From Desulfobulbaceae bacterium (lineage in GTDB: Bacteria > Desulfobacterota > Desulfobulbia > Desulfobulbales > Desulfocapsaceae), in the NCBI GenBank assembly GCA_008933635.1, contig WBUQ01000011.1, forward strand, positions 1-59,709: a stretch of DNA of 59,709 nt, in the 5' to 3' direction. The notes below the pieces were generated by a model. It saw nothing but the letters and a program-made list of their open reading frames with translations. It had not been told where the DNA came from and made no database searches. Position 1 is the first letter of the stretch. Each line of letters begins with the position of its first letter. Positions 2,361-59,641 of the stretch are shown here, in pieces. Both the position numbers and the translations under genes were made by a program.

Positions 2361-2409
2361 ATGATGAAGCATCATCCGTTTTGACAGCCAAACGGTATCC
2401 GTACCATTT
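2361..2409 (+). promoter_or_regulatory. Possible purL promoter and inverted repeat
   Basis: A perfect 6-bp inverted repeat ATGATG-aag-CATCAT (2361-2375) is followed by TTGACA at 2381-2386. The best -10 is weak (TACCAT, 2402-2407, spacer 15). The repeat does not resemble the enterobacterial PurR box. The position upstream of purL suggests a promoter, but this rests on the -35 alone. Confidence 0.3.
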
Positions 2410-2427
2410 TTCCAAAAGGACGAGAAA

Positions 2428-5400: not shown

Positions 5401-6231
5401 GAACCGGCGCCGCCGGCCCTCCTGGCCCTGACCGGCAAGCCGAAGGTGGCGATTCTGCGCGACGAGGGTTCAAACTCGGATCGCGAGATGACCTCGGCTT
5501 TTTATCTGGCCGGTTTTGAACCCTGGGATATCTGCATGCAGGATCTGCTGGACGGAACAGCCACCCTTGACGGGTTCCGGGGACTGGCCGCCGTCGGCGG
5601 CTTCTCCTACGCCGACGTGCCGGAGTCGGCCAAGGGCTGGGCGGCGGCGATCCGCTTCAACCAGCGGCTGCAGGAGATGTTCCGTGCCTTCTACAACCGT
5701 CCCGACACCTTCACCTTCGGGGTCTGCAACGGCTGCCAGCTCTTCGGTCTGCTCGGCTGGGTACCGCGTCTCGGGCTCGCCGACGAGCAGCAGCCGCGAT
5801 TTGTCCACAATCGTTCCGGTCGCTTCGAGTCCCGCTGGTCGACGGTCCGGGTGGAGAAAAGTCCAGCGATGATGCTCAGGGGCATGGAGGGCACGGTCTT
5901 CGGCATCCATGTCGATCACGGCGAGGGACGACTGCACTTTCCCGATGAGGAGATCCACCGGGAAATCCTGCGGGACAGGCTGGTGCCCCTCTCCTATGTC
6001 GACGACGACGGCAGGCCGACCGAGGCCTATCCCTTCAATCCCAATGGCTCGCCCGGCGGCATCGCCGGCCTCTGCTCCGCCGATGGCCGGCACCTGGCGC
6101 TGATGCCGCACCCGGAAAGAGTGTTCCTGCCCTGGCAGGCCCATTGGTTGCCTGAGGAAATGCGGCATCTGCAGGTGACGCCGTGGATGCAGATGTTCCG
6201 CAACGCCTACGACTGGTGCATGAAAGCCTGA
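2428..6231 (+). CDS. purL: Phosphoribosylformylglycinamidine synthase, single-chain form
   Basis: Catalyses ATP- and glutamine-dependent conversion of FGAR to FGAM, the fourth step of purine synthesis. At 1267 residues this is the long PurL in which the PurS-like, synthetase and glutaminase parts are fused, as in gammaproteobacteria, and not the split PurS/PurL/PurQ system. The N-terminal region carries NNANSEHSRH near residues 188-200; Gly-rich ATP-binding stretches follow (GTGGRIRDVQGTGRG, GVTVRDVLHRVLR). The C-terminal class I amidotransferase domain has its nucleophile Cys at about residue 1100 in GVCNGCQLFG and the His/Glu pair in MPHPERVF near 1228-1230. ATG 2428 is preceded by AAAAGGA with a 7-nt spacing. 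All key residues seen are intact. No other pur genes are in the window. Confidence 0.97.
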   Translation: MSAIVTQLYKLVDQNKEFCFNIESARPLVGEELLCLRQILADGFVADTVTTEPVLAGDRVVEIGPRLNFATAWSSNMVSICRATGLEAVTRVERSRRILVPEGTDIQEYIDQNHDRMTECRYLEPLHTFETGIVPEAVYEVDLQGKGPDGLLGIPGISMDEWDRNLYYDYFVKQHGRNPTIVEIMDLNNANSEHSRHGFFKGQQVIDGEEMADSLFGLVIATLTANPKGSVIAFKDNSSVVEGCELQTLLPESPGQPSSFTATTVRYHPLLTAETHNFPTGVAPFPGAETGTGGRIRDVQGTGRGGFVIAGTAGYCVGNLHIPGYPLEWEERYPCPGNLASALEIEIEASNGASDYGNKFGEPLIQGFTRSFDLQPDGGERWGFLKPIMFTAGIGQIDARLTEKNAAEKGMLIVQVGGPAYRVGFGGGAASSMLQGENATDLDFDAVQRGDAEMEQKMNRVIRACNEMGDRTLIDVIHDQGAGGPANVLKELVEKSGGRVEIRNIRVGDPTMSVLEIYVAEYQERNGFLIRPENIERFQEICRREKVACEVLGEVTGDLRFVVHDDRDGSTPVDIELVALLGNIPRKTFRDCRRNPGLRPLALPAGVTVRDVLHRVLRLVSVGSKRFLTSKVDRAVTGLIARQQCCGPLQLTVADVAVVAQSHLGLTGIATAVGEQSIKMLVDPAAGARMAVGEAMTNLVWARIADCEQIKCSANWMWAPKLAGEGAAIYDAASAMRDVMIAVGMAVDGGKDSLSMATMVGSETVKSPRELVISAYAAVPDITRVITPDIKHPGSFLALIDLGNGRHRLGGSALAQVYRQLGHESPDVDQPEQLRAAFAAIQGLIDGDLISAGHDRSDGGLIACLLEMAFSGDCGLEIALQGEAGVFEQLFAEELGLVVEIRPGRLEQVRERLEKAGVPLAVVGTSTPEKRIIIDCNGEQVLDEEMVLLRSWWEETSYQLERLQIDPSCADEEKTAIHDRRGPTYRLPFIPEPAPPALLALTGKPKVAILRDEGSNSDREMTSAFYLAGFEPWDICMQDLLDGTATLDGFRGLAAVGGFSYADVPESAKGWAAAIRFNQRLQEMFRAFYNRPDTFTFGVCNGCQLFGLLGWVPRLGLADEQQPRFVHNRSGRFESRWSTVRVEKSPAMMLRGMEGTVFGIHVDHGEGRLHFPDEEIHREILRDRLVPLSYVDDDGRPTEAYPFNPNGSPGGIAGLCSADGRHLALMPHPERVFLPWQAHWLPEEMRHLQVTPWMQMFRNAYDWCMKA

Positions 6232-6279
6232 TCGGGAAAAGGCGTTGCCATTTCCGCTTTTTCTGTGAGAGGATGAGCG

Positions 6280-6320
6280 AAGGCTGACCGGTCGCTTGCG
6301 GCTGGTCAGCCTTTCTTTTT
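6280..6320 (+). terminator. Rho-independent terminator after purL
   Basis: The arms AAGGCTGACC (6280-6289) and GGTCAGCCTT (6304-6313) form a 10-bp stem that runs directly into TTTCTTTTT. It lies 49 bp after the purL stop. Its 3' arm overlaps the last codons of the convergent desulfidase-like gene. Confidence 0.85.
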
Positions 6321-42796: not shown

Positions 42797-44419
42797 TTAC
42801 AACAGAAAATACGTCGCCATCAGCCCGGTCAGGCTCATGGTGATGGTATAGGGCAGGGCCAGCAGGACCATCCTCCCATAGCTCAGCCTGATGACCGGGG
42901 CGAGAGCTGAGGTCAACAGAAAGAGGAAGGCCGCCTGGCCGTTGGGGGTGGCAACGCTGGGGATATTGGTGCCGGTGTTGATTGCCACCGCCAGCCTGTC
43001 GAATTGTTCCATGATCACTCTTGCCTGCTCGGACGCTCCCGGCGGCAGGGCGGCAAGTACTTCGGTGCGGGCTACGTTGGGATCGGTCAGCCGATCCATC
43101 AGTTGGGCTCCGGTCATGCCGATGTCGGGAATTCGCCCGAGGACCTCGGTCATGTGCATCTTCGTTTCTGAGATGTAGACCGTGGCGACAAAGACGTTAT
43201 CCGAGATCATTGACAGCACCCCATTGGCGATATAGTAGGCTGCCAGCTGGGCGCTTCCCTTGAGGCTGAGCACATAACCGATAACCGGAGCGAAGAGGTG
43301 CTGGTCGTGAATGACGGCGACAATCGCAAAAAAGACCACCAGCAGGGCAGTGAAGGGGAGGGCTTCCTGGAAGGCGTGGCCGAGCTGGTGTTCCTCGATG
43401 ATGCCGTTGAAGGCGGTCAGCAGGACGATGACCGACAGGCCGATTACGCCGACCGCAGCCAGATGGAGGGCCAGGGCGACAATCAGCCACACCCCGATAA
43501 GACCCTGGATAATCAGGCGGGCTGTGCCCTGGCGGCCCCGTTTCTCCTCGGTCCGTATCTCGGTTTCGAGCAGATGGGAGCGGATATTGCCCGGCATCTC
43601 CGCTCCGTAAGTAAAAAGCTTCAACTTTTCGACAACCACGCAGGTTGCAAGCCCGACGAACAGAACGGGAATTGAGACCGGTGCAGTCTTCAAGAAGAAG
43701 GGGATGAAGTGCCATCCCATCTCGCTGCCGATCAGCAGGTTCTGTGGTTCGCCGACCAAGGTGCAGACACCTCCGAGGGCGGTGCCGACCGCGCCGTGCA
43801 TCATCAGGTTCCTGAGAAAACTCCGGAACTCCTTCAGTTCCTGGCGTTGTATCTCCTTGAAGCTGGTATCGCAGCACAGATCATGGGTGCAGAGCGGGTC
43901 AGCTCCCGACGCAAAACGGTGGTAGACGTTGTAGAAGGCGTAGGCGACGGCGATAATTACTGCAGTCACAGTCAAGGCATCGAGGAAGGCGGACAGGAAG
44001 GCGCCGAGGAAACAGAAGATCAGCGAGATGGCGATCTTCGACTGCACCCGGACCAGCAGGCGGGTGAAGGTGAACTGAAGGAAATCCTTCATGAAAAAGA
44101 TACCGGCCACCATGAAGATCAGCAGCAGGATGACCTCGAAATTGTTGAGTGCTTCATGATAGACGGTTTCCGGGCTGGTCATGCCGATGATGACGGCTTC
44201 CATGGCAAGCAGACCGCCGGCCGGCAGAGGATAGCACTTCAGGGCCATCGCCAGGGTGAAGATGAATTCGCCGATCAGTACCCAGCCAGTGGCGAAGGGG
44301 CCGACGGTATGCAGGAGGATGGGGTTGATGACCAGGAAGATGATAATGGCGAGTTTATACCATCCGGGAGCGTTTCCGAGGAAGTTGCGGGCGAAGGCCT
44401 GGGGCAGGGTGGCTGTCAT
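42797..44419 (-). CDS. nhaB: NhaB-type Na+/H+ antiporter
   Basis: A 540-residue antiporter with about twelve membrane segments. NhaB signatures: [20 protein letters not shown] at the N-terminus, [38 protein letters not shown] (the conserved Asp), [20 protein letters not shown] and [20 protein letters not shown]. It exports Na+ for pH and salt homeostasis. AAAGGA precedes ATG 44419. Separated from the OFA carrier gene by a 405-bp gap, so it is likely its own unit. Confidence 0.95.
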
Positions 44420-44824: not shown

Positions 44825-46006
44825 TCAGGATGGAGAGATCGGTGCGGCTAAGGGGTGGCCGAAGGTCTTCCTGAATCTCAACGTGAGGACGATGGCGACG
44901 ACCAGCATGATCGCCAGGAGTCTGAGAAAACCGGTAAAGCTGTGGGTGTGATCGAAGATGAGACCGGCGATAAGCGGGGCAAGGGCTGCCGGGATGTTGG
45001 CGGAAAAGAGCCAGCCGTAGACCTGGCCGACATGGCGGTATCCCCAGGTACCGGCCACTGTTGCCGCATAGAGGACCAGGACGCCGCCGTAATTGAATCC
45101 TGTGAGCAGGGCAAAGAGCAGGAGGCCGTCATCGCCGGCGAGGATGAGCTGAGAACAGAACAGCGCCAGGGCCTGGGCCGCGAGGTTGAGACGGATGGCG
45201 GTCAGCGGCTGCAGACGGTCGGCGACAAAGCCCCAGATGACCCTGCCCAGGGCGTTGGCCAGGGCAAACACGGCTACCGCGGTGATACCCGTCTGCACCG
45301 TGCCTGCCGGAAAGAGTTCCTTGAGGTTGGCGTTGACGGTGAAACCGGCGGCCAGTCCGGTGATCATGGCCATGTAGAGGAGAATGAACTGCGGCATCCG
45401 GACAACTTCGCGGAAGGCCAGCGATGGAGTTCCGGCCAAGCCGTCTTCATCGGGATTGCGCATCATCACTCCGCCCAGGCAAATGGAGAACAGGAAGATC
45501 AGGCCGAAAAGGGAAAAGGTCGTAAACGGGGACCAACCCTGGCCATTCATCAACCAGCCGGCAGTCTTGCTGATCAGGGCGGCACCGCCGCCAAAGCCGG
45601 CTACCGCGACGCCGGTCACCAGTCCCTTGTTGTCGGGGAACCAGCGGATGCAGGTGGCGATCGGAACGATATAGGCGAAGCCGGCACCCAGTCCGGCACA
45701 GAGCCCGATGCCGGCAACGGTGAAGGCAAAATGAAGGCTGCCGAAGGAGGCGAGCAGCCAGCCGCCGCCAAAAAGGATCCCGCCGGCGATGGCACAGAAT
45801 CGGGGGCCGAGCCGATGCAGGAGACTGCCGGCGAACAGCATCGTTGCCGGGAAAACGAAATAAAAGACGGTGAAAGGCAGCTGCACCGGACCTTGCAGCA
45901 GTCCGGTGAGTTCCTTGAGTGGCCGGACGTAGACCGACCAGGAATAGGTTGCGCCGAGGCAGACCTGCATCAGCACGGCGGCGGCGAGGATCAGGTAGCG
46001 CTGCAT
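44825..46006 (-). CDS. OFA-type major facilitator carrier (oxalate/formate antiporter family)
   Basis: A 393-residue MFS protein with twelve hydrophobic segments. The first helix LAAAVLMQVCLGATYSWSVYVRPL and the AGLGAGFAYIVPIATCIRWFPDNKGLVTG segment are marks of the OFA family, which moves small carboxylates such as oxalate and formate. It follows the LutAB gene by 135 bp on the same strand. A role in carboxylate export or uptake with the lactate genes is inferred from position only. Confidence 0.85.
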   Translation of the reverse strand: MQRYLILAAAVLMQVCLGATYSWSVYVRPLKELTGLLQGPVQLPFTVFYFVFPATMLFAGSLLHRLGPRFCAIAGGILFGGGWLLASFGSLHFAFTVAGIGLCAGLGAGFAYIVPIATCIRWFPDNKGLVTGVAVAGFGGGAALISKTAGWLMNGQGWSPFTTFSLFGLIFLFSICLGGVMMRNPDEDGLAGTPSLAFREVVRMPQFILLYMAMITGLAAGFTVNANLKELFPAGTVQTGITAVAVFALANALGRVIWGFVADRLQPLTAIRLNLAAQALALFCSQLILAGDDGLLLFALLTGFNYGGVLVLYAATVAGTWGYRHVGQVYGWLFSANIPAALAPLIAGLIFDHTHSFTGFLRLLAIMLVVAIVLTLRFRKTFGHPLAAPISPS

Positions 46007-46141: not shown

Positions 46142-48301
46142 TCACTCCGGTTTCCGGCGCCGGGCGGCCAGGGCCTCGGCGGTGTGCTGGACGACGATCT
46201 GTGATCCGCGTTTCTTCAGGCCGCCGCGAAGCTGCATGACGCAGCCGGGACAGTCGGTGAGGAGGATCTCGGCACCCGTCACCTCCACATGGTCGAGCTT
46301 CTTGCGCAGCATTTCGGCCGAAAGTTCCGGGAACTTGGCCGAAAAGGTACCACCGAAGCCGCAGCAGACTTCCGACTCGTCGGCCTCGCGGTAATCGAGG
46401 CCGGCGTCGCGCAGCAGGGCGCGGGGGGCTTCATGGACGCCGAGGCCGCGACACAGGTGGCAGGGCGAATGGAAGGTCGCCGGTTTGCCGTCGCCGGAAA
46501 AATCCTCAGCTTTCAGGCCGAGGACATCGTGGGCGAACGAGGAAAAATCGATCACCTTGGCCGTAAAGGATTTTGTTTTTTCGAGCATTTTCTGATCGTC
46601 GCCGAGCAGCACCGGGTAGTTGTGCTTCAGGTGCGATGCGCAGGAGGCGCAGAGAGTGACGATATAATCGACGTTTTCCTTCTCGAAGGCCCGGACGTTC
46701 TGTACCGCCACATCCCGCGAGGCCTTGGCTTCGCCCATCATCTGCACCGGTAGACCGCAGCAGGACTGGGCCATCGGAAAGGACATCGCCACTCGATGCT
46801 CGGCAAAGAGGTGGAAGGCCGCTTCCATCTGCTCGGGATAGACAAAATCCTGGACACAGCCGGAAAACAGCCCGACCCGCAGGCGCGGGTTGTCGATGGG
46901 TCTGGCGAGTTCCTGCCAGCGGTCGCGGAAGGGCTTTTCGGCGACGGTCGGCAGGGCCTTGAAATCGTGCTCCTTGAAGAACATCATCGGCAGGTGGCGC
47001 ATGAAGCCGTCCTCGCCGCTTACCGGCCGCTGGGCCCATTTGGCGGTGCGCAGCAGGGTATGGAACAGCTTGCGGTTCTTCAGGATCTGGCCGAGCAGCA
47101 GGCTGGGCAGCGGGTGTCCCTTTTCGTCCTGAATCCGCACGTGAACCTGCTTGATCAACCGCGGCAGGTCGATGCCGCCGGCGCAGATATCCTTGCAGGC
47201 CTCGCAGTTGATGCAGTTCTGGATCAGGTTCTTGGCCTTTTCCGGGCCGTGGAAGAAATAGGTGAGGATCAGGCCGATGGCGCCGATGTAGATATGGCCC
47301 ATCTTGTGACCGCCGACCAGGCGGTAGACCGGGCAGACATTGGCGCAGGCGCCGCAGCGGACGCAGCGGAAGACCTGGGAGAAGAGGGGATCTCTGGCCA
47401 TCTCCAGCCGGCCGTTGTCGAGGACGACGAAGTGGATCTCTTTTTTCCGGTTGCCGGCCGCCGCGCACTCGTTGGCGCCGGTGATCCAGGTGACGTAGGA
47501 GGTGATCTGCTGGCCGGTGGCGTTGCGCGGCAGGACCTTGAGTATCCGGAGGGCGTCGGTAAGACTCGGTACCAGCTTGTCGATGCCAAGCAGAGCGACA
47601 TGCACCCGCGGCAGGGTGGTGACCAGGCGGGCGTTGCCCTCGTTGGTGACCAGGCCGATGGTGCCGGTGTCGGCGATGGCGAAGTTGGCGCCGGTGATGC
47701 CCATGTCGGCCTCGACGAACTTGCTACGCAGTTCGCGCCGCGCCACCTTGACCAGCTTCTCGATGTCCGGTTCCTGTTTTGCCCCGGTCACATCGGAAAA
47801 CAGGTCGCCGACCTGATAACGGGACAGGTGAATGGCCGGCATGACCATATGTGATGGCCCTTCGTGGCGGAGCTGGATGATCCACTCGCCGAGATCGGTC
47901 TCGGTCACTTCGAGGCCATGGTCCTCGAGGGTGTGGTTGAGCAGTGTCTCCTCGGCGGTCATCGATTTCGATTTGACGATCTTTTTCGACCCGGTGGCCT
48001 TGGCGATTTCGGCAATGATGGCATTGGCTTCTTCGGCGTCACGGGCGAAGTGGACCTGGACGCCGGCTGCCTCGGCGTTTTTGCGGAACTGGTCGTACAA
48101 TTCATCGAGTTTCGGCAGGACACTGTCCTTGGCGGCGGCGACCTCGGCTATCAGGCCGTGCACATCGATCTCGGCGAAGGCTTTCGCGCGGCTGGCCCGG
48201 TAGGCGACGGCAAAGGTGTCCAGGCTTTTGCGCAGGAATTCGTTATCCAGCGATTCCTGCATTTCCTTCCGGTATTCTTTCAGGTTCTTGGCGTCCTGCA
48301 T
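46142..48301 (-). CDS. Fused LutB-LutA-type iron-sulfur lactate dehydrogenase subunit (LldEF)
   Basis: A 719-residue protein joining two parts that are separate in Bacillus. The N-terminal LUD domain (about residues 60-300: KSMTAEETLLNHTLEDHGLEV, ITGANFAIADTGTIGLVTNEG) is followed by two 4Fe-4S motifs (CVRCGACANVCPVYRLVGG; CINCEACKDICAGG). The C-terminal half has two CCG domains (LFSGCVQDFVYP with SCCGLPVQMMG; CHLCRGLGV with EVCCGFGGTF). With LutC it oxidises L-lactate. Fusions of this type are known in sulfate reducers such as Desulfovibrio. ATG 48301 has GGAGG 6 nt upstream and lies one base from lutC, so the two are translationally linked. Confidence 0.92.
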   Translation of the reverse strand: MQDAKNLKEYRKEMQESLDNEFLRKSLDTFAVAYRASRAKAFAEIDVHGLIAEVAAAKDSVLPKLDELYDQFRKNAEAAGVQVHFARDAEEANAIIAEIAKATGSKKIVKSKSMTAEETLLNHTLEDHGLEVTETDLGEWIIQLRHEGPSHMVMPAIHLSRYQVGDLFSDVTGAKQEPDIEKLVKVARRELRSKFVEADMGITGANFAIADTGTIGLVTNEGNARLVTTLPRVHVALLGIDKLVPSLTDALRILKVLPRNATGQQITSYVTWITGANECAAAGNRKKEIHFVVLDNGRLEMARDPLFSQVFRCVRCGACANVCPVYRLVGGHKMGHIYIGAIGLILTYFFHGPEKAKNLIQNCINCEACKDICAGGIDLPRLIKQVHVRIQDEKGHPLPSLLLGQILKNRKLFHTLLRTAKWAQRPVSGEDGFMRHLPMMFFKEHDFKALPTVAEKPFRDRWQELARPIDNPRLRVGLFSGCVQDFVYPEQMEAAFHLFAEHRVAMSFPMAQSCCGLPVQMMGEAKASRDVAVQNVRAFEKENVDYIVTLCASCASHLKHNYPVLLGDDQKMLEKTKSFTAKVIDFSSFAHDVLGLKAEDFSGDGKPATFHSPCHLCRGLGVHEAPRALLRDAGLDYREADESEVCCGFGGTFSAKFPELSAEMLRKKLDHVEVTGAEILLTDCPGCVMQLRGGLKKRGSQIVVQHTAEALAARRRKPE

Positions 48302-48302
48302 A

Positions 48303-48944
48303 TCAGTCCTCCAGCAGCAGAATGTGCAGTTCAAGCGGTCCGTGCACACCGAGGGCGAGGACCCGTTCGATATCGGCGGTGCGACTGGCCCCGGTGATGA
48401 AGGCGGTGTAATCGGGGGTCTTGCGCATGAATTTGAGCAGGTGGCGGTCGGCGGCGAAGGCATCCTCGACGATGGTTGACCGGCGCAGGACACAGACGTG
48501 GTATTCGCTCAGCATGGTCGCCAGCCGCAGTTCCTCGTCTGGGCAGTTGATCACCAGGGTGCCGGTCTCGGCGATTCCGAAGTCGGCAACGGTAAACCCG
48601 ATGTCGACTCCGCTGAGGTGCTCCCGCATCCCGGAGCGGATGCAGGTCATCCCCTGCTCGCGGCAGCGCGCTGCGAGGCTGGCAAACTGGTCCTGGGTCA
48701 GGCCGGGGGCGGCGACGATCTTCTCCTGTTTCAGGTCGCAGAGGGTGTCAGCCGGCTGCGACAAGGCCTCGTCGCAGCCGGAGATCTTTATCCGGCAGGC
48801 TCCGCGTCGACCGCAGAGATCAAGGCAGTAGGCCATGGCCTGGTCGAGGTCGACGACGGGTTCGACGATCGCGGATACCGCCCGCGCTTTTTCGGTGAAG
48901 CGGTCGGCGAGATGGTCGCTCTGGGGCGTGTTGTTCTCAGACAT
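48303..48944 (-). CDS. lutC: LutC/LldG-type LUD domain protein
   Basis: A 213-residue subunit of the LutABC L-lactate oxidation system. The LUD domain ends in the typical FTVADFGIAETGTLVINCPDE and YTAFITGASRTADIERVLALGVHGP segment. The N-terminal part has a CLDLCGRRGACRIKISGC stretch. The start at ATG 48944 has AAGGAGG 9 nt upstream; the longer open frame from 48995 has no family match. It is one base upstream of the LutAB fusion gene. It lies 77 bp after glcF. Confidence 0.9.
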   Translation of the reverse strand: MSENNTPQSDHLADRFTEKARAVSAIVEPVVDLDQAMAYCLDLCGRRGACRIKISGCDEALSQPADTLCDLKQEKIVAAPGLTQDQFASLAARCREQGMTCIRSGMREHLSGVDIGFTVADFGIAETGTLVINCPDEELRLATMLSEYHVCVLRRSTIVEDAFAADRHLLKFMRKTPDYTAFITGASRTADIERVLALGVHGPLELHILLLED

Positions 48945-49021
48945 GGCGGCTAGCCTCCTTCTCCACTGCCGGAAGGGCAACGGCGGTAATTTCATTGATC
49001 ATGGCCGGCAGCTCCACTCTT

Positions 49022-50311
49022 TCAGTCAATGCTGTCGGCATAGAGCTCCACCACATGACGGACCCGGATACCCTTGTCGCGGCGGGAAAGCATGTCGGTC
49101 ATCTGCATCATGCAGGCCGGGCAGCTCGTGGCCACCGTCTCCGCCCCGGAGGCGACAATATTGTCGGCCTTGCGGTTGCCGATCTTCTTCGACAGTTCGT
49201 AGTGGGCGACATTGAAGCTGCCGCCGCAGCCACAGCATGTGCCGGCCTCGTTCATCTCGACGAAGTTGCCGCCGGCGGCCCTGATCAGGGTCCGGGGCTG
49301 ACGGGTGATGCCCAGCGAGTTTTTCAGGTGGCAGGGGTCGTGGTAGGTGATGACATCCTCCTTGGCGGGCGTCACTCCGAGACCGTCGAGACCCAGGCTG
49401 TCGACCATGAATTCGGTGATATCCCTGGTCCTTTCGCCAAGTCTGGCAATGTCGCCAGCGATATCCCGGCTGCCGCTGTACAGGTGCGGCCACAGTTCCT
49501 TGATGGTTGCGGTACAGGAGGCGCAGGGAGTGACCAGGTAATCGAAGGCTGCATTGCGGAACAGCTCGACATTCATTTCGATCAGGGTGTTGAAGGTCTG
49601 GCGGTCGCCGCTGGTCAGCACCGGGATGCCGCAGCAGGCCTGCCCGGCTGGCAGGAAGACACCGACCTCCTTATTCCTGAAGATCTTGACCGCCGCCTCG
49701 CCGATCTGCGGGAACATCTTGTCGACCACGCAACCGGGAAAGAAGGCCACTCTGAGGCCGCTGGCGCCGGCAGGGGTATCGAGCCGGGGGACGATTTTGC
49801 GGAATGGTCTGGTGGCCAGGGCGTTGAAATGGCGGTCGGCGACCACCGGGGCATTGAAGCGGGCGCAGGAAGAGCCGAGCAGATCGTCGACCTTCTTGGT
49901 AAAGATCCCCTGGAATTTCGAACCCATCGAGGTCAGGGCATTGAACAGCCTGGGGTTGGCCAGCATGCCGCGGAAGATGGCCTTCTTTACCGGCGAGAGG
50001 CCGAAATAGCCGGTCAGGATTGCCCGGGCTGCCAGGAAGATGTCGATGATCTGCACCCCGCTCGGGCAGTTGGCCTGGCAGGTGCCGCAGAGGAGGCAGC
50101 GATTGAGGGCGGTATCGATGCCCTGTGAATCTTGGAGGATTTCGGCGGCCAGGCCTTCCAGCAAAGCCAGCTTGCCACGGGTGACGTCTGTCTCGCGGCC
50201 GGTCTCCCGGAACAGCGGGCAGACGGCCTGGCACATGCCGCAACGCATGCAGTTGACCAGCTGGTCATCGAGGTTTTTGAACATCAGGGCGAGTTGCTGC
50301 AGATCTGCCAT
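49022..50311 (-). CDS. glcF: GlcF-like (Fe-S) subunit of a 2-hydroxyacid dehydrogenase
   Basis: A 429-residue protein with two 4Fe-4S motifs at the N-terminus (CMRCGMCQAVCPLFRE near residues 21-36; CLLCGTCQANCPSGVQ near 72-87) and two CCG domains (FFPGCVVDKMFPQIGE with ACCGIPVLTSGD; YHDPCHLKNSLG with TCCGCGGSFNVAHYE). It passes electrons from the FAD subunit to the membrane pool. It starts 6 bp after glcD. The pair is of the glycolate oxidase type and, in sulfate reducers, acts as D-lactate dehydrogenase. Confidence 0.92.
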   Translation of the reverse strand: MADLQQLALMFKNLDDQLVNCMRCGMCQAVCPLFRETGRETDVTRGKLALLEGLAAEILQDSQGIDTALNRCLLCGTCQANCPSGVQIIDIFLAARAILTGYFGLSPVKKAIFRGMLANPRLFNALTSMGSKFQGIFTKKVDDLLGSSCARFNAPVVADRHFNALATRPFRKIVPRLDTPAGASGLRVAFFPGCVVDKMFPQIGEAAVKIFRNKEVGVFLPAGQACCGIPVLTSGDRQTFNTLIEMNVELFRNAAFDYLVTPCASCTATIKELWPHLYSGSRDIAGDIARLGERTRDITEFMVDSLGLDGLGVTPAKEDVITYHDPCHLKNSLGITRQPRTLIRAAGGNFVEMNEAGTCCGCGGSFNVAHYELSKKIGNRKADNIVASGAETVATSCPACMMQMTDMLSRRDKGIRVRHVVELYADSID

Positions 50312-50317
50312 ACGCGT

Positions 50318-51706
50318 CTAACCTTCCATCTTCTTGGGGTTGAGGATATTTTTGGGGTCGAGGGCCTTCTTCATCCGGGCCGTGTAATCGATGGTTGCCT
50401 GACCGATTTCCTTGACGAGGAAATTCCGCTTGGCCAGGCCGATGCCGTGTTCGCCGGAGAGGGTGCCGCCCAGGGCCAGGGCGCGGTCGAAGATCTCCTC
50501 GATCGCATGTTCAACCCGCTGCCATTCCGCCTTGTCGCGTTTGTCGGTGAGGATGGTGGGATGGAGATTGCCGTCACCGGCGTGGCCGAAGGTGCCGATG
50601 GTCAGGTCGAATTTCCTGCTGATCTCGCCCAGGGCGGCTATCATCGCCGGGATCTTCGAGCGCGGCACCGTGGCGTCTTCCAGCACGCAGGTCGGTTTGA
50701 GCTTGGCCAGGGCCGGCAGGGCGTCCCGTCTGGCCTGCCAGATGGTGTTGCGTTCGCCGGCATCGTGGGCGACTTTGATTTCCCGCGCTCCCTGCCGGCG
50801 GCAGATTTCTTCCACCCGCGCCGCCTCGTCGGCAACCTGGCCGGGATGACCGTCGACCTCGATCAGCAGCAGGGCGGCGGCGTCGGTCGGCAGGCCCGCC
50901 TTGCGGAAGTTGTCGACGGTGCGGATGGTGAAATTGTCCATCATCTCCAACGTCGCCGGCACGATCTTGGCGGCGATGATGGCGGCGACGGTTTCGGAGG
51001 CTGCGGCGATCGAATCGAAGATCGCCATCATCGAACGGGCTGCCTGGGGAGGCGGGATCAGTTTGAGGATGATCTTGTCGAAGACCCCCAGAGTCCCCTC
51101 CGAAGCAACCATCAGGCCATGCAGGTTGTAGCCGGTAACCGATTTGACGGTGCGTGAACCGGAGCGGATCAGGTTTCCCTGTACATCCCAGAACTCCATG
51201 CCCATCACATAGTCCTTGGTCACCCCGTATTTCAGGCCGCGCAGGCCACCGGCATTCTCGGCGACATTACCGCCCAGCGTCGAGACGGTCTGGCTGCCTG
51301 GATCGGGCGGATAGAAGAGACCGCGCCGGGCGACCTCCTGGGCGAAGACGGCGGTGACGACACCGGGTTCGACGATGGCGTAGAGATCCTCCTCGTTGAT
51401 TTCGAGGATGCGGGTCAGTCCGTTGGTGAGGATCACCACCCCGCCGGGATGGGGGATGGTACCGCCGGAGAGGTTGGTGCCGGCGCCGCGCACGGTCAGC
51501 GGCAGGCCGTTGTCGTTGCAGAGTCTGGTCACGCGGCCGAGGGCCTCGGAGGTGGTCGGGCGGACGACGATACCCGGCATTACCGGTTCGAGAACCGCGG
51601 CGTCATAGGAATAGGCGTAGCGGTCGATTTCACTGGTCATCACATTGTCGCTGCCGACAATGGCGGAAAACTCGCCGACGAGGGCGGATGCTTGGGGCGA
51701 ACTCAC
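50318..51706 (-). CDS. glcD: GlcD-like FAD-linked D-lactate/glycolate dehydrogenase subunit
   Basis: A 462-residue flavoprotein of the VAO family. The FAD-binding region holds LPLTVRGAGTNLSGGTIPHPGG and PPDPGSQTVSTLGGNVAENAGG; the C-terminal FAD-oxidase domain has TFGHAGDGNLHPTI (metal-binding His) and LSGEHGIGLAKRNF. Substrate could be D-lactate or glycolate; the TRAP importer, LutABC proteins and adjacent sigma54 regulator favour lactate. It precedes glcF by 6 bp. A hairpin lies between this gene and the upstream universal stress protein gene. Confidence 0.93.
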   Translation of the reverse strand: MSSPQASALVGEFSAIVGSDNVMTSEIDRYAYSYDAAVLEPVMPGIVVRPTTSEALGRVTRLCNDNGLPLTVRGAGTNLSGGTIPHPGGVVILTNGLTRILEINEEDLYAIVEPGVVTAVFAQEVARRGLFYPPDPGSQTVSTLGGNVAENAGGLRGLKYGVTKDYVMGMEFWDVQGNLIRSGSRTVKSVTGYNLHGLMVASEGTLGVFDKIILKLIPPPQAARSMMAIFDSIAAASETVAAIIAAKIVPATLEMMDNFTIRTVDNFRKAGLPTDAAALLLIEVDGHPGQVADEAARVEEICRRQGAREIKVAHDAGERNTIWQARRDALPALAKLKPTCVLEDATVPRSKIPAMIAALGEISRKFDLTIGTFGHAGDGNLHPTILTDKRDKAEWQRVEHAIEEIFDRALALGGTLSGEHGIGLAKRNFLVKEIGQATIDYTARMKKALDPKNILNPKKMEG

Positions 51707-51888: not shown

Positions 51889-52395
51889 TCAGATCTCTTC
51901 CTCCATTCCTTTCGGCACCTTGACGACCAGCACCGGCTGGCTGGCGTCATGCAGGACCTTGCGGGTGGTGCTGCCGAGGATCACTTCTCCGACCATCGTA
52001 TGGCGCTGGGCTCCCATGACGATGACATCCGCCTTGTATCGGTTGGCGAACTCGACAATGGCCTGGGCCGGGTGCTCCTCGACGATGCAGATCTCGCTGA
52101 CCGCCGTGCTGCATTCCGGCTTGCCCTCGCACTCCCTGGCGCACAGTGTCGCCAGCCTCTCCCGCAGTCTGGCCGTTACGCTCTCCCTTGCCTTGCTGTG
52201 CAGGGCAGCGGATTCCTCCTCGGAGAGGTACTGCCCGACCAGGCTCTGGCCGAAGGTCGAAAGCGGCTCGATACAGTGCAGGGCGACGATCTTCGCCTCA
52301 TACTGTCTGGCCAGGCTCAGGGCATGGCGGAAGACATAGGGAGCCCGGGTGCCGAGGCCGGTGGCGTAGAGTATGGTGTTGATTTTTGGCAGCAT
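51889..52395 (-). CDS. Universal stress protein (UspA family)
   Basis: A 168-residue single-domain UspA protein. It opens with INTILYATGLGTRAPYVFRHAL and ends with ADVIVMGAQRHTMVGEVILGSTTRKVL and QPVLVVKVP. The ATP motif G-2x-G-9x-G-S/T is present except that the second Gly is Arg (GAQRH), so nucleotide binding is uncertain. It lies between dctM and glcD, 37 bp after dctM. USP genes embedded in TRAP operons are known and may tune transporter activity. Confidence 0.9.
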   Translation of the reverse strand: MLPKINTILYATGLGTRAPYVFRHALSLARQYEAKIVALHCIEPLSTFGQSLVGQYLSEEESAALHSKARESVTARLRERLATLCARECEGKPECSTAVSEICIVEEHPAQAIVEFANRYKADVIVMGAQRHTMVGEVILGSTTRKVLHDASQPVLVVKVPKGMEEEI

Positions 52396-52432: not shown

Positions 52433-53773
52433 CTAGTCGCCGAAGAAGACCGAGGGCAGATAGGTGACAAGATCCGGGAAAACAACCATGCTGGCAACGC
52501 AAAGGAGCTGCAGGACGATGAAGGGAATAATGCCACGGTAGACTTCACCCATGGTGAATTCCGGCGGTGCCGCGCCCTTGAAATAAAACAGCGAGTAGCC
52601 GAATGGCGGGGTCAGAAACGACGTCTGCAGGTTCACGCAGAGGATCATTGCAAACCACAACGGGTCGAAGCCGAGATCCTGGGCGATCGGGGTGAAGATC
52701 GGCACCGTCACCAGCAGGATGGCGGCCCAGTCGATGAACATGCCGAGGATGAAGACCACCAGGTTCATCAGGAGGAGAACAACATACGGGCTGACATCCA
52801 TGCCGAGCAGCACGTCGGCGACCACGTCGCCGCCGCCGATGCTGAGGAACACCACGCTGAAGACCTTGCCACCGATGAAGAGGGCCATGACCATGCAGGT
52901 GGTGCGGGCGGTGGCCAGCGAGGCCCCGGAGATCATCTTCCAGGTACAGGTTCGTTTGAATACGGCCAGGACAAGGGCGCCGGTAGCGCCGAGGGCGGCT
53001 GCCTCGGTCGGGGTGGCGACACCGGCCAGGATGGTGCCCATGACGGCGAGGATCAGGCCGAAGGGCGGCACCAGGCTTTTGACGAACATGAAGCATTTCT
53101 GGCCGAGGGTGGCGGTCCGTTCCTCTGGCGGAATCGGCGGGCCGGCGTTGGGATTGAGGGCGCAGCGGATGCCGACGTAGGTCAGGTACAATGCGGAGAG
53201 CAGCAGGCCGGGCATGATGGCGCCGGCGAAGAGGTTGCCGACCGAGGTCTCCTTCAGGCCGGTCAGACCGGCATAAACGACCAGCATGATCGAGGGCGGG
53301 ATCAGGATGCCGAGCGTCCCCGAGGCGGTGATGATGCCGGCCGACATTGGCTTATCATAGCCGCGCTGCAGCAGGGCCGGACCAGCCATCAGGCTCATGG
53401 CGACGACGGAGGCGCCGACGATGCCGGTGGTGGCGGCAAAGACCGTCGAGACGACGATGACTGCCAGGCCCAGGCCGCCGCGCAGGCCGCCGAGGATGAC
53501 GTAGAGGGCGTCGAACAGCTCTTCCGAGACCTTGGCCCGGTCGAGGACCTGGGCCATGAAGATGAACAGCGGAATCGAGACCAGGGTGTAGTTGAGGAAG
53601 ATACCCCAGTTGTTGTTGGTGATCAGGTCGAACAGGGCCGGGATGTCGAAGCCGTTGTCGATCAGCCCGATCAGGGTTGCGGTGGCGGCCAGGGTGATCG
53701 CCAGGGGGTGGCCCAGGGCGATGGCCGCCATCAGGATGCCGAACATCAGGATGGTGAGTACTTCAGGTGTCAT
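52433..53773 (-). CDS. dctM: TRAP transporter large permease (DctM)
   Basis: A 446-residue protein with about twelve membrane segments. Family marks: LNYTLVSIPLFIFMAQVLDRAKVSEELFDAL, AVIVVSTVFAATTGIVGASVVAMSLMAGPALLQRGYD, GTLGILIPPSIMLVVYAGLT and QTSFLTPPFGYSLFYFKG. It forms the sodium-driven channel of the TRAP system with DctQ. It starts 21 bp after dctQ. Confidence 0.96.
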   Translation of the reverse strand: MTPEVLTILMFGILMAAIALGHPLAITLAATATLIGLIDNGFDIPALFDLITNNNWGIFLNYTLVSIPLFIFMAQVLDRAKVSEELFDALYVILGGLRGGLGLAVIVVSTVFAATTGIVGASVVAMSLMAGPALLQRGYDKPMSAGIITASGTLGILIPPSIMLVVYAGLTGLKETSVGNLFAGAIMPGLLLSALYLTYVGIRCALNPNAGPPIPPEERTATLGQKCFMFVKSLVPPFGLILAVMGTILAGVATPTEAAALGATGALVLAVFKRTCTWKMISGASLATARTTCMVMALFIGGKVFSVVFLSIGGGDVVADVLLGMDVSPYVVLLLMNLVVFILGMFIDWAAILLVTVPIFTPIAQDLGFDPLWFAMILCVNLQTSFLTPPFGYSLFYFKGAAPPEFTMGEVYRGIIPFIVLQLLCVASMVVFPDLVTYLPSVFFGD

Positions 53774-53794: not shown

Positions 53795-54292
53795 TTATTG
53801 GTTGGAACGGAGGGCCTGGAAGTCCTGGAGCAACTTCGAGACACCTGCCAGAAAAAAGAGGACGAAGCCGATGGCCATCACCGTTTTGTAGGGGTAGATG
53901 GCCGGCGACCAGGACGACGAGGCGCGTTCCCAGATTACCCAGGAGGTGGCCGCGTATTTGATCGACCAGATCGCCATGCAGGCCATGGTCGGTACGAAGA
54001 TCACCAGGTTGGTGATGATTCGGAGGATGGTCCGGGTTCTCGGCTGCAGTCGCGATTCGAAGATGTCGATACAGACGTGGGTGTTGGTGCGGTGGGCGTC
54101 GCCAAAACCGAGCATGTAGTGCATGCCGTAGAGAAACGTAGTCATTTCAAAACCCCACGAGGTGGGAGAGTTGAAAACGTAACGGACGATAACCTCGTAG
54201 ACCACCGCGATGATCAGCGGCAGTATCAGGTAGGAACTGTACAGTCCGGTTTTTTCATTCAGGGCATCGATGGCCCGGGAGATCGTCTGCAT
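53795..54292 (-). CDS. dctQ: TRAP transporter small permease (DctQ)
   Basis: A 165-residue four-helix membrane protein. Segments are LYSSYLILPLIIAVVYEVIV, WGFEMTTFLYGMHYMLGFG, RIITNLVIFVPTMACMAIWS and TVMAIGFVLFFLAGVSKLLQ. The NSPTSWGFEMTTFLYG stretch is typical of the family. It lies between dctP and dctM, in the usual gene order for periplasmic-binding-protein-dependent carboxylate uptake. Confidence 0.92.
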   Translation of the reverse strand: MQTISRAIDALNEKTGLYSSYLILPLIIAVVYEVIVRYVFNSPTSWGFEMTTFLYGMHYMLGFGDAHRTNTHVCIDIFESRLQPRTRTILRIITNLVIFVPTMACMAIWSIKYAATSWVIWERASSSWSPAIYPYKTVMAIGFVLFFLAGVSKLLQDFQALRSNQ

Positions 54293-54373: not shown

Positions 54374-55528
54374 TTACTGGAGGCGCTTGCCGTTGATGTA
54401 GTCGTCGATCGGCCAGGGAGCGAGGCCGCTTCTGATCTCACGCCACTCGGCGAAGTCCTTCTTGAACAGTTCCTGGGAGTCGAGGGTGGCCTTGACGCCC
54501 GGGTTCTTGGCCTTCAGATCTTCGAGGTAGGTCTTGGTCTGCTTGGCGAAGTTGGTGATGGCGTCATTATCCATCTTCACGAATTCGACCTTCTGCTTGA
54601 ACAGCTTGATCGCTTCGATATTCAGGTTTTCCTGCCAGGCGGTGGACCACAGCTGGGTCTCCTTGGCGGCGATGTCGACGATCCACTTCAGGTCCGCCGG
54701 CAGCTTGTTGTAGGCATCCTTGTTGAAGAACAGGGCGCACTGGACCGACGGCTGATGCACGCCGGGGGTGATGACGTACTTGGTGATTTCGTCGAAGCCC
54801 ATCGGGTAGTTCATCGCCGGGGTGCTGAACTCGGCGCCGTCGATGACACCGCGCTCCAGCGCCAGGTAGATCTCGCCGCCGGGCAGCGGGGTGACGGAGG
54901 CGCCGAGCTGGGTCATGATGTCCATGTACCAGCCGGGGGTGCGGACGCGCATGCCCTTGAAGTCTTCCATCTTGGTGGCTTTCTTGTTGGAGAAGAAACC
55001 CATCTCCTGACCGCCGTTGCCGCCGGGCAGGGCATAGAGATTATATTTTCCGTACAGTTCCTGCATCTGCTCGAGACCGCCGCGCTCATAGAGCCAGATA
55101 TTGTAGCCTTCGGTATCGAGGCCGAAGGGGACGGAGGCGAAGGAGACGAAGTTCTGATCCTTGCCCTGCCAGTAGCCCGGCCAGTCATGACCGACTTCGG
55201 CGGAACCCTTGCTGACGGCGTCGAACGACTCCATTGCACCCACCAGCTCACCGGCGGAGAACAGCTTGATCTCCAGGCGGCCGCCGGAGGCCAGGGCGAC
55301 GGAATCGGCGAAATGCTGGGCCATATCGTAGAACAGCAGTCCCTTGGACCAGGGCATGACCATCTTCCACTTGAAGGTCTCCTCACTCGGTTTGATGGTC
55401 CGCAGTTCCTTCTTCACAGCCTCGTGCCGTTTGTCGGCACCGAATTTCTCGCGGGCGGCATCGGCGTTGGTTACCGCTACCGACAGAGATAAAGCGGCAA
55501 CGGTGGTGATGATCCAGTTTTTCTTCAT
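54374..55528 (-). CDS. dctP: TRAP transporter solute-binding protein (DctP/TakP-like)
   Basis: A 384-residue periplasmic binding protein. The signal peptide is MKKNWIITTVAALSLSVAV ending near NADA. FKWKMVMPWSKGLLFYDMAQ is the domain start; FKGMRVRTPGWYMDIMTQLG holds the carboxylate-binding Arg, and ALERGVIDGAEFSTPAMNYP plus FDEITKYVITPGVHQPS resemble proteins binding 2-oxo acids or lactate (TakP and Thermus TTHA0766 types). Neighbouring lactate dehydrogenase genes favour lactate or pyruvate. ATG 55528 has GGAGGG upstream. It is the first gene of the operon and is preceded by the sigma54 promoter. The ligand is inferred. Confidence 0.92.
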   Translation of the reverse strand: MKKNWIITTVAALSLSVAVTNADAAREKFGADKRHEAVKKELRTIKPSEETFKWKMVMPWSKGLLFYDMAQHFADSVALASGGRLEIKLFSAGELVGAMESFDAVSKGSAEVGHDWPGYWQGKDQNFVSFASVPFGLDTEGYNIWLYERGGLEQMQELYGKYNLYALPGGNGGQEMGFFSNKKATKMEDFKGMRVRTPGWYMDIMTQLGASVTPLPGGEIYLALERGVIDGAEFSTPAMNYPMGFDEITKYVITPGVHQPSVQCALFFNKDAYNKLPADLKWIVDIAAKETQLWSTAWQENLNIEAIKLFKQKVEFVKMDNDAITNFAKQTKTYLEDLKAKNPGVKATLDSQELFKKDFAEWREIRSGLAPWPIDDYINGKRLQ

Positions 55529-55659
55529 GGTTCCCTCCTTCAAAGAAGTGGATGGTGTGGGCACCGGAGAATCCGGCACGATCGATATGGAAGATACTGT
55601 ACCACGCTGGTGATAAGAGCATCCGTACTGCCTGTGCAGTTCTCGACAGAAGGAAGACA

Positions 55660-55675
55660 AGCAACTGGCGTGCCA
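55660..55675 (-). promoter_or_regulatory. Sigma54 (-24/-12) promoter of the TRAP/lactate operon
   Basis: Read on the minus strand: TGGCACG-CCAG-TTGCT, a full match to the consensus TGGCACG-N4-TTGC(A/T). It leaves a 5' UTR of about 120 nt to the dctP start. A sigma54-dependent activator gene lies upstream in the opposite direction, which is the expected arrangement. Confidence 0.9.
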
Positions 55676-55756
55676 GTAGAGACGGTGTTGCTGCATTGTG
55701 AATTAGGTCGAAAATTCAGCGGATTGGTTTTTCGATGGGAAGGAGAGGGCCGGAGG

Positions 55757-55774
55757 TGTATGAAATTCTGGACA
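55757..55774. promoter_or_regulatory. Activator-binding site candidate, copy 1
   Basis: TGTATGAAATTCTGGACA, sharing 13-14 of 18 bases with the other two copies. It lies about 110-125 bp upstream of the predicted sigma54 start, the normal distance for an enhancer-type site. Confidence 0.6.
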
Positions 55775-55860
55775 GCAAGGTTGGCCAGATGGGCTCAATA
55801 CGTCGACGGAGTAGCTACCGATCAAATGTAACGCAGCGTGATATCTATACAAATCAAAAC

Positions 55861-55878
55861 AGTCCGAAATTGCGGACA
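55861..55878. promoter_or_regulatory. Activator-binding site candidate, copy 2
   Basis: AGTCCGAAATTGCGGACA, an inverted repeat (GTCCG...CGGAC). It is 104 bp from copy 1, close to ten helical turns, so both would face the same side of the DNA. Confidence 0.65.
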
Positions 55879-56117
55879 GAGGTGGCGACTGTTTTTCAAT
55901 TCAGAATGAAGGTTCATGAACGGGTGCCGGTGTGGGGATCAGAATTCATTGCGTACCTGTACAGCCGCCATGCCATGGTGCAATTAATGTCATTAATACA
56001 TATGAATAGACTATTCAATTGCCAAGGGTGATGGTGTCTCAGACAGATATTTCACCCAAACTGAACCGGCGAAATGATGTGGAAGGCAGGGGGAGGAAAT
56101 GATCATGGCACAATTCC

Positions 56118-56135
56118 TGTCCGATATTTTGGACA
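56118..56135. promoter_or_regulatory. Activator-binding site candidate, copy 3
   Basis: TGTCCGATATTTTGGACA, the most symmetrical copy (TGTCC...GGACA), matching copy 2 at 14 of 18 positions. It lies close to the activator gene and may also control that gene. Confidence 0.65.
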
Positions 56136-56303
56136 GCCAGTACAGCTGTCCTCCGGAACGTGATCGGGACGACTTTCCGGTGGACTTTGACAGGGTGAAT
56201 GTGTATCAATAAATATACATGTATCAAAATGTCACGCCTGCTGAGAGGCAGAGATGGGCTCTTCCGGGAAGATCCGGCTCAGGAAATCAACGAGGTGGCT
56301 GAA

Positions 56304-57719
56304 ATGACGGACAACCGATCGCAGGCCGGGACGGCGGCGCTGCTTGAGCAGCTGGAACTGTTCCAGCTGATCTTCGATAACATCCCGAGCGGAGCGATGA
56401 TCACCACTCCCGGTGGCATAGTCACGCACCTCAATAAGCCATACGCCCGGTTTCTCGGTATCGACGTTGCGAAGAGTATCGGCCGGCATTGCACCGAGGT
56501 GGTGGAAAACACCAGAATGCATGTTGTCGGGGCCACCGGGGTGGCGGAGATCAACCAGATCCAGATGATCCGGGGGCAGAACATCGTCGTCCACCGCATT
56601 CCGCTGAACAAGGGGGAGCGGGTGATCGCCGTATTCGGCCTGGTGATGTTCCAGGACATCAGCGAGATCGTCAAGCTCGCCCGTAAACTCCACTCCCTCG
56701 AATCGAAGGTCAAGAACTACGAAAAGGAGCTGATGAACCTGCGTTCCACCCGTTATACCCTGGACAGCATCATCGGCACCAGCACCGCCATCAATGCCCT
56801 GAAGCAGCAGGCGCTGGTGGCAGCCGGCAACACCTCGCCGGTGCTGATCACCGGTGAGAGCGGCACCGGCAAGGAACTCTTCGCCCAGGCTGTGCACAAT
56901 GCCGGTCCGCGCAAACTGCGGCCGTTCATCCAGATCAACTGCGCCGCCATCCCCAAGGATCTGCTCGAGTCGGAACTGTTCGGCTATGACCGTGGCGCCT
57001 TCACCGGCGCCCTTGCCGGTGGCAAACCGGGAAAATTCGAGCTGGCCGATCAGGGAACGATCTTCCTCGACGAGGTCGGCGATCTGCCGCTGGACATGCA
57101 GCCCAAGCTGCTGCGGGTTCTGGAGGAGAAATGCTTCGAGCGGATTGGCGGCAATACCCTCATCCGCTCCGACTTCCGGCTGATTGCCGCCACCAACCAG
57201 ACGCTCGAGGAGATGATCAGTCGCGGCCAGTTCCGCCGCGATCTCTATTACCGGCTGAATGTCATCGCCTTGAACATCCCTCCGCTGCGGGAGCGGAAGG
57301 AGGATATCCTGCCCCTGACCGTGCATCTGCTGGCGGAGCTGTCCCGCCGGAACGGCTGCAGTGCAGTCGGCATCAGTCAGGCGGCGATGGAGGCGCTGAT
57401 CGGCCGGACATGGCCGGGAAATGTCAGAGAACTGTCCAATGTGCTGGAGAGGGCCATGATAGCCATGCATGGCGAAGAGATTGAGGTGGCGGACCTGCCC
57501 TTCATGCCGAAGGCGGTCAGGTCGGAGAGGCCGGAGCCGGTGAATATCAGGTTCCGCGATGTCCAGGCCGACGCGGAGAAGTCGGCTCTGCTGGCAGCCC
57601 TGCGAAAAACCGGCTACAACAAGGCCCGGGCGGCAGCCCTGCTGGGCATCCACCGAACCTTGCTGTATAAGAAACTGAAGAAGTACGGTCTGCCGCTGCA
57701 GGGCCCACCGGCTATGTAG
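56304..57719 (+). CDS. Sigma54-dependent activator with PAS domain (LurR-like by context)
   Basis: A 471-residue enhancer-binding protein. An N-terminal PAS sensor (about 18-115: LIFDNIPSGAMITTPGGIV), a short coiled coil (125-150), an AAA+ domain with Walker A GESGTGKE (184-191), GAFTGA (231-236) that contacts sigma54, and Walker B IFLDEVGDLP, then a Fis-type HTH (NKARAAALLGIHRTLLYKKL) at the C-terminus. There is no receiver domain, so it senses a ligand directly. Divergent from the TRAP-lactate operon, which has a sigma54 promoter and three palindromes. In Desulfovibrio a sigma54 activator, LurR, controls lactate genes; this may be its counterpart. ATG 56304 follows GAGGTGG; in-frame ATGs at 56199 and 56229 are alternatives. 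Confidence 0.92.
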   Translation: MTDNRSQAGTAALLEQLELFQLIFDNIPSGAMITTPGGIVTHLNKPYARFLGIDVAKSIGRHCTEVVENTRMHVVGATGVAEINQIQMIRGQNIVVHRIPLNKGERVIAVFGLVMFQDISEIVKLARKLHSLESKVKNYEKELMNLRSTRYTLDSIIGTSTAINALKQQALVAAGNTSPVLITGESGTGKELFAQAVHNAGPRKLRPFIQINCAAIPKDLLESELFGYDRGAFTGALAGGKPGKFELADQGTIFLDEVGDLPLDMQPKLLRVLEEKCFERIGGNTLIRSDFRLIAATNQTLEEMISRGQFRRDLYYRLNVIALNIPPLRERKEDILPLTVHLLAELSRRNGCSAVGISQAAMEALIGRTWPGNVRELSNVLERAMIAMHGEEIEVADLPFMPKAVRSERPEPVNIRFRDVQADAEKSALLAALRKTGYNKARAAALLGIHRTLLYKKLKKYGLPLQGPPAM

Positions 57720-57744
57720 TCATTTTGCTACATAGCCGGTGGGC
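57703..57744. terminator. Perfect 17-bp hairpin across the activator stop codon
   Basis: GCCCACCGGCTATGTAG (57703-57719) and CTACATAGCCGGTGGGC (57728-57744) are perfect complements with an 8-nt loop. The left arm encodes the last residues and TAG stop. No T-run follows. It lies between convergent genes, so it may block read-through both ways. Confidence 0.6.
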
Positions 57745-57778: not shown

Positions 57779-59395
57779 TCAGAATTCCTGCCGCAGGCCC
57801 ATGGGCTGGTGCTGGAAGATCCTGGCGTCCATCAGTCTTGGCTGGGTGCGGATGAACGGCGGGAAATCCATCTGGGCGAGGATGTCCCGCTCCAGATCGA
57901 TGCCCGGGGCGATCTCCACCAGTTCCATCCCCTCGTCGGTCAGCATAAACACGCAGCGTTCGGTGATGTAGAGCACCGGCTGGCCCTTCGAGACCGCATA
58001 AGGACCGGAAAACGTTACATGCTCGACCTGATCGACGAATTTCCGGACACTGCCCTCCTTTTCAATCCGCAACGCGCCATCCCTGACCGAAATCTCCAGG
58101 CCGCCGGCGGTGAAGGTGCCGACGAAAACCACCTTCTTGGCGCTCTGGCTGATGTTGATGAAACCGCCGGCCCCGGCCAGCCGGGTCCCGAACTTGCTGA
58201 CGTTGAGGTTGCCGTGGCGATCGGCCTGGGCCAGTCCCAGGAAGGCCAGGTCCAGGCCGCCTCCGTCGTAGAAGTCGAACTGCGAAGGCTGGTCGATCAG
58301 GGCGTCGGTATTGAGGGCGGCGCCGAAGTTGAGGCCGCCGGCTGGAAGTCCGCCAATGACGCCGGGTTCGGCGGTCAGGGTAATGTAATCGAGGATCTGT
58401 TCCTCGGCTGCGACATTGGAAATCCCTTCCGGCATACCGATGCCGAGGTTGACGATGCCGTCGGCTGTCAGTTCGAGGGCCGCGCGGCGGGCGATGATCT
58501 TGCGGTCGCTCATCTCGATGGTCGGCAGGGCGTGCACCGGCATCTTGATTTCACAGCTGTAGGAGGGATTGTACTGGGTTCCGAAGGTCTGCCAGTGGTT
58601 GCGGGAATCGGAGATCACCACCCGGTCCACCAGGATGCCCGGGATCTTGACCTGACGGGCGTTGAGGCTGCCCCGTTCAGCGACCCGTTCCACCTGGACG
58701 ATGACGATGCCGCCGCTGTTGTGTGCGGCGGTGGCGATGGCCAGGGCCTCGAGGGTCAGGGCCTCGCGCTCCATGGTGATATTGCCGTCGGTATCGGCCG
58801 TCGTTCCCCGCAACAGGGCGACATGGATGGGAAATGTCTTGTAGGCCAGGTAGTCACGGCCGTCGAAGGTGATGTGTTCGACCAGGTCTTCGGTGGTGAT
58901 GCTGTTGATCTTCCCCCCGCCGTGGCGCGGGTCGACGAAGGTGTCGAGGCCGACGGTGGTGATGGTTCGCGGCTTTTTGGCGGCGATGTCCCGGTAGAGG
59001 TGGGAGATTACCCCCTGGGGAAGATTGTAGCCCTCGATCAGGTTGTCCAGGGCCAGTTTCTGCAGTTTCGGTACCAGCCCCCAGTGACCGCCGACTACCC
59101 GCCGCACCAGGCCGGGATGGCCGAGGTGATTGAGCCCCCGCTCCTTGCCGTCGCCCTGTCCGGCGGCATAGACGACCGTCAGGTCGCGGGGCTGCCCGTG
59201 CTGGACATAGTACTCCTCCAAGGCGATTGCCAGCTGTTCGGGAAAGCCGATGCCGACGAAACCGCCGGTGGCAATCGTGTCGCCGGTGCGGATCAGGCGG
59301 ACGGCCTCTTCGGCGGAAACGACTTTTTCCCGGCGAACATGTCGACGGGGGGAACTGGACTGCTGGCTTCGGGAGGTGGAGGCGTTGTTTTCCAT
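57779..59395 (-). CDS. Acyl-CoA:carboxylate CoA-transferase (propionate CoA-transferase-like)
   Basis: A 539-residue family I CoA-transferase in which the two half-domains are fused, as in propionate CoA-transferase. The N-terminal half has [22 protein letters not shown], and the C-terminal half has [17 protein letters not shown] and the active-site [14 protein letters not shown], whose Glu forms the CoA thioester. Exchange between acetyl-CoA and propionate, lactate or a similar acid is likely; the exact pair is unknown. ATG 59395 was chosen; the frame is open to 59461 but lacks family similarity. It converges on the activator gene and is divergent from the SDR gene. Confidence 0.88.
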
Positions 59396-59641
59396 GGAGA
59401 TGTCGGTGCTTGAAGGATAATGGTCTGTGGCAAGGCTGCATGCCGGAGTTGTTGTCCTCAAGGATTAGCAAGATAGATGCCAGATGGGAGAAAGGCGACG
59501 AACAGACCCTGGTTGTCTGCTGGCTTGGAATTTGCACGAAAGATCGGCGCGTCGCTGGTCGATGCAGCAGGACTGTCGGCAGAGGCGGTTGCCAACTCCC
59601 ATCAACCACGCATCGGTGAGGTCACCGAAAAGGAGCGGATC

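Follow-up and report, generated by a model that had tools for sequence, protein, structure and literature searches.

In D. vulgaris, lactate oxidation is regulated by the LurSR two-component system, of which LurR is the sigma54-dependent response regulator (PMC6456213). In Desulfovibrio, LurR corresponds to DVU3023 and the operon to DVU3025-3033 (PMC3333781, PMC6456213). Promoters of this regulon carry one to four LurR sites, mostly three, upstream of the first gene, and the published 16-bp sites include GTCCGCTTTTCAAGAC, GTCTGCAATGTCGGAC and GTCCATTTTTTCAGAC (PMC6456213). A por or lactate permease gene in first position is usual for the published set but not strictly defining. LurR sites are also bound in D. 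vulgaris by NrfR (PMC6456213), a nitrite stress-activated regulator which targets nrfHA and for which a very similar site motif has been published. Sigma54 activators of another kind, namely six one-component EBPs with PAS, are known from D. vulgaris as well (PMC4641369).

The window analysed here is the whole stretch of 59,709 nucleotides from a Desulfobulbaceae bacterium (genome G000). On its minus strand lies an operon which was annotated as lactate-type, and this assignment holds by gene content and Pfam domains. The operon begins with dctP, which encodes a TRAP solute-binding protein (54374..55528; DctP, E 2e-47), followed by dctQ (53795..54292) and dctM (52433..53773), both assigned from position as the small and the large TRAP membrane subunit. 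The next gene encodes a UspA-like protein (51889..52395), named by eye, and this order is conserved in relatives. Then follow genes for a GlcD-type FAD D-lactate/glycolate dehydrogenase subunit (50318..51706; FAD-oxidase_C, FAD_binding_4), a GlcF-type Fe-S/CCG subunit (49022..50311; CCG, Fer4_8), a LutC-type LUD-domain protein (48303..48995; LUD_dom) and a LutB/LutA-type fusion of the L-lactate dehydrogenase type (46142..48493; LUD_dom, Fer4_8, CCG), the true start of which is probably further in. After the lactate genes, an MFS transporter (44825-46006) and an NhaB-like antiporter (42797-44419), both named by eye, are encoded on the same strand.

The dctP operon is preceded by a sigma54 -24/-12 promoter, TGGCACGCCAGTTGCT (55660..55675, minus strand), which shows zero mismatches to TGGCACGN4TTGCW. 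This element had been noticed before; no other in the window has the full sigma54 consensus. Upstream of it three 18-bp LurR-type sites are found on the plus strand, the proximal site 1 with the sequence TGTATGAAATTCTGGACA (55757..55774), the middle site 2 with AGTCCGAAATTGCGGACA (55861..55878) and the distal site 3 with TGTCCGATATTTTGGACA (56118..56135). As read from the sequence they are imperfect palindromes, in which 5/9, 7/9 and 7/9 pairs are symmetrical. The first-pass annotation had described them as such at these three positions, and its consensus, with up to three mismatches allowed, matches seven times on both strands of the window compared to 0.49 expected matches, a number which is reached by none of 100 shuffles. 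Site 1 had been placed at about -110 to -125, and its computed centre, 104 bp from the GC of the -12 part, is at approximately -116. Within the window the spacing is 104 bp between sites 1 and 2 and 257 bp between sites 2 and 3. As a separate observation, a short conserved hairpin, GCCRGA...YCYGGC, precedes the ribosome-binding site in the dctP leader (55528-55648, minus strand). In three of the six sequences one of its pairs is A-U instead of G-C, both sides having changed.

Relatives were found via orthologues of the PAS activator encoded next to the operon, and the gaps between dctP and the activator gene were read in seven genomes (G000, G002, G017, G168, G169, G176 and G177). The sigma54 element followed by the three sites in the same order recurs in all seven gaps, that is in six relatives besides the window, which bears out the description of a sigma54 promoter with three conserved enhancer-type sites. 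The sigma54 element has no mismatch in G002, G017, G168, G169 and G177 and a single one in G176. A matrix trained without the window ranks sites 1-3 first in their own gap (24.2, 20.6 and 20.2 bits), and with leave-one-out matrices, each built from the other six genomes, the three sites outrank all other positions in each of the gaps, the 21 scores going down to 9.0 bits. Even the odd left arm of the proximal site, GTAY, is kept in all seven genomes. When five whole genomes were scanned with a sequence model of the site, the matches at E <=10 were confined to the array and to lurR loci, and site 3 is the best genome-wide match in G000. One near-perfect extra genome match (C126:33500) was set aside as a chance match, as it is surrounded by densely packed coding sequence and no connection to lactate or sigma54 was seen there. 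The inter-site spacings range from 104 to 114 bp and from 160 to 267 bp across the seven genomes, and because of this variation no fixed helical phase is kept. The 104 bp between the first two copies noted earlier are therefore correct for the window, but the suggested ten helical turns are not maintained in the relatives (109-114 bp), and fixed phasing was rejected.

The first-pass annotation knew of no published motif of this sequence. However, GTCCATTTTTTCAGAC and GTCTGCAATGTCGGAC, among others, had already been described as LurR sites (PMC6456213). With the matrix from the seven gaps, restricted to its 16 core columns, the published sites reach 11.7-18.0 bits, and random positions attain 12 bits or more at a frequency of about 1e-5 to 2e-5. 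The locus shares with the Desulfovibrio LurR regulon the upstream sigma54 promoter, the 16-bp palindromic motif and the usual number of three sites, found here in all seven genomes, as well as lactate dehydrogenase genes in the operon and lurSR genes close by. The latter are near the operon in G002, G017 and G177; for G000 the proximity follows solely from the abutting contigs. In contrast to the Desulfovibrio regulon, the first gene is dctP of a TRAP transporter and not por or a lactate permease gene, the sites stretch over approximately 380 bp, and a CoA-transferase gene together with a second sigma54 activator gene separates lurSR from the operon.

For the distribution of LurR a protein from a Desulfovibrionales-type lurSR-por locus (G407) was used as query, which was identified by por synteny and not by name. 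A first pattern-based lookup of such a reference gave chance matches only; a search with the promoter sequence then led to the locus, and two of its three hits were not LurR loci. All 11 genomes in which the array lies at dctP encode full-length LurR orthologues (58-62%), and the same search found none in G028, G180, G173 and G006. In G002, G017 and G177 lurR is part of the operon's locus and adjoins the CoA-transferase gene. The G000 genes are located on contig C107 (lurR 2078-3541, lurS 3545-6286). When aligned to G002, the head of this contig takes up where the window tail stops, apart from a gap of about 30 bases, and the adjacency to lurSR spans this contig break. By comparison with G002, lurSR of G000 would thus follow the CoA-transferase gene, shortly after the end of the window. 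Positions 1-2064 of C107 (L215) contain SDR-like and thiolase-like frames, named by eye, which are divergent from the CoA-transferase gene and precede lurR. The recognition helix SRSHFY/SRSHLY is shared from the Desulfovibrio-type protein to the LurR of G000, while that of the PAS activator reads HRTLLY.

Several genomes uncouple the array from the PAS activator. In G004, G018, G020 and G032, in which LurR is present and the PAS activator was not detected, two to three sites are found at the junction of lurR and the operon. In the congener G004, whose lurSR locus contains no TRAP genes, the sites are at -228, +41 and +150 when counted from the lurR stop. They are followed by a perfect sigma54 element and by glcD, glcF-type, lutC and lutB genes 82-93% identical to those of the window. 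The G004 spacings of 109/269/104 (the last one to the -12 element) compare to 104/257/104 in the window. In G005 and G022 the three-site array is at dctPQM beside lurR, and the PAS activator gene is located elsewhere with no array beside it. G028, G180 and G173, which have TRAP genes and the PAS activator but no full-length LurR, show no array. In G171 all three are present, yet the PAS-adjoining TRAP operon has no array and weaker sites adjoin lurR. G003 encodes LurR, and no site was found within the 433 bp after lurR, where the contig ends. In a second group of genomes (G029, G016, G166 and G165) the activator gene lies downstream of dctPQM, and dctP is nevertheless preceded by all three sites. 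The dctP promoters of that group (L049, L052, L168, L169) also contain a sigma54-like element with GTGTA as its -12 part in three of four cases. Between this promoter and site 1 they have a further conserved palindrome, of the GAAAACCAGGTTTC type.

The distal site is located inside lurR in most LurR-linked loci (L184 and others), 192-228 nt before the stop. G002 retains this intragenic site; G000, G017 and G177, whose lurR is no longer adjacent to the operon, lack it. Site 3 of the window therefore looks like the moved counterpart of the site in the 3' end of lurR. Since lurR is directly upstream in the relatives without a PAS activator and carries the distal site in its 3' end, the operon with its array was probably split from lurR by the segment of the CoA-transferase and PAS activator genes. 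Autoregulation of the neighbouring activator gene through site 3, as suggested in the first-pass annotation, was rejected as its main role, because the four genomes of the second group keep all three sites upstream of dctP and the distal site lies within lurR in LurR-linked loci.

Taken together, we assign a probability of roughly 0.88 to the reading that the three palindromes are enhancer sites for the LurR orthologue, which would activate the sigma54 promoter at 55660-55675. The sites, their conservation, their co-occurrence with lurR and their motif match are the basis from which binding, phosphorylation and the response to lactate are predicted. LurS would sense lactate or a related signal and then phosphorylate LurR, oligomers of which would occupy the sites approximately 116, 220 and 477 bp upstream of the start. 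By looping to the sigma54-RNA polymerase, LurR would then remodel it at the dctP promoter.

The adjacent divergent gene (56304..57719, plus strand; start probably at 56304) encodes a PAS-AAA+-Fis sigma54 activator (PAS_8, Sigma54_activat, HTH_8), which has the same domain plan as the one-component PAS-type activators of D. vulgaris. Its predicted operator is a TGTA-N10-TACA element and differs from the palindrome of sites 1-3, which is not conserved at its own promoter; a TGTATCA-type motif is found there instead. Nearly all orthologues have an 18-bp TGTATCA...TCTACA element upstream of the gene, in many cases as a head-to-head pair. The copy in the window, TGTATCAATAAATATACA, lies just upstream of the activator gene (56202..56219, plus strand) and has the best window score (22.5 bits, matrix trained without G000). 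A second palindrome of this type, TGTAGTCATTTTGCTACA (57715..57732, plus strand; 21.6 bits), is located where the activator and CoA-transferase genes converge, between their 3' ends; 9/9 group-A genomes keep its core with changing flanks. Further copies of this separate, conserved operator family tied to the PAS activator are seen in L046 (4227), L047 (5672) and L048 (7815). The genome-wide scan with a model of this operator was weak (E >=1.3) and gave only the loci already known in G002 and G005 and nothing in G000, so that we claim no wider regulon. A scan of the named genomes with generic AAA+ patterns gave one close orthologue of the activator only (L059). The near-constant neighbour of the PAS activator gene is the CoA-transferase gene (57779..59461, minus strand; CoA_trans), which is preceded by the sigma54-like element TGGCATCTATCTTGCT (59467..59482, minus strand, two mismatches); such elements are also found before this gene in relatives. 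The divergent sigma54-like element TGGCTTGGAATTTGCA (59521..59536, plus strand, two mismatches) faces the SDR/thiolase-like frames that lie past the end of the contig. These operator copies and sigma54-like elements suggest that the PAS activator probably controls itself and the CoA-transferase/acyl-CoA genes.

Both kinds of sites are present within one gap, and the dctP promoter could integrate two signals, from LurR via sites 1-3 and from the PAS activator via 56202-56219. This would be an addition to LurR binding and not an alternative to it. G005 has tandem PAS-type operators (18.2 and 19.7 bits) upstream of its LurR-linked dctP, which fits such an arrangement, but in most genomes it is the PAS gene, rather than a LurR-linked operon, that carries the PAS operator, and the operator at 56202 is explained equally well by autoregulation of the PAS gene. 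We regard this extension as possible but rather doubtful.

It is improbable that the PAS-AAA+-Fis neighbour itself binds the three sites, activates dctP and regulates its own gene via site 3, as had been assumed earlier. The activator is the divergent neighbour in the seven-genome set and the sites are in the shared gap; however, there is no array beside the PAS gene in G033, G178, G005, G022 and L059, in which the gene does not adjoin the operon, or at the PAS-adjoining TRAP operons of G028, G180, G173 and G171, and the array occurs without this activator in the four genomes named above. An array which is kept where the activator gene lies elsewhere, and which is absent beside the activator elsewhere, does not follow the PAS activator, and its distribution across the genomes follows LurR instead. 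The different operator at its own promoter and the different recognition helix also speak against the neighbour as reader.

As NrfR binds LurR sites in D. vulgaris, a second response regulator with LurR-like specificity could be thought of as the main reader here, and G000 does encode a LurR paralogue on C231. Its recognition helix, SKARLYQLLGKY, is unlike that of LurR, and no LurR-type sites were found in its 14-kb locus, which leaves this reading very unlikely. No link to nitrite stress or nrfHA is seen here. That the sites, given their short and degenerate motif, are chance repeats or a non-regulatory element can practically be dismissed in view of the shuffle controls, their top genome-wide ranks and their retention in seven genomes with gap lengths of 734-899 bp.

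Since the sites match the published LurR motif and lurR is close by, the switch in the window is probably another LurR regulon, one headed by TRAP transporter genes, and is probably not read by the neighbouring activator. More speculatively, a single gap containing operators of two sigma54 activators, with the PAS protein encoded between lurR and the operon, may couple lactate uptake to acyl-CoA metabolism. On the LurR reading, an activator gene beside a sigma54 promoter need not encode the protein that reads the enhancers of this promoter, and the PAS neighbour gains a predicted operator that can be tested separately. The experimentally studied LurR lactate switch would be extended to a version with a TRAP transporter in another lineage.
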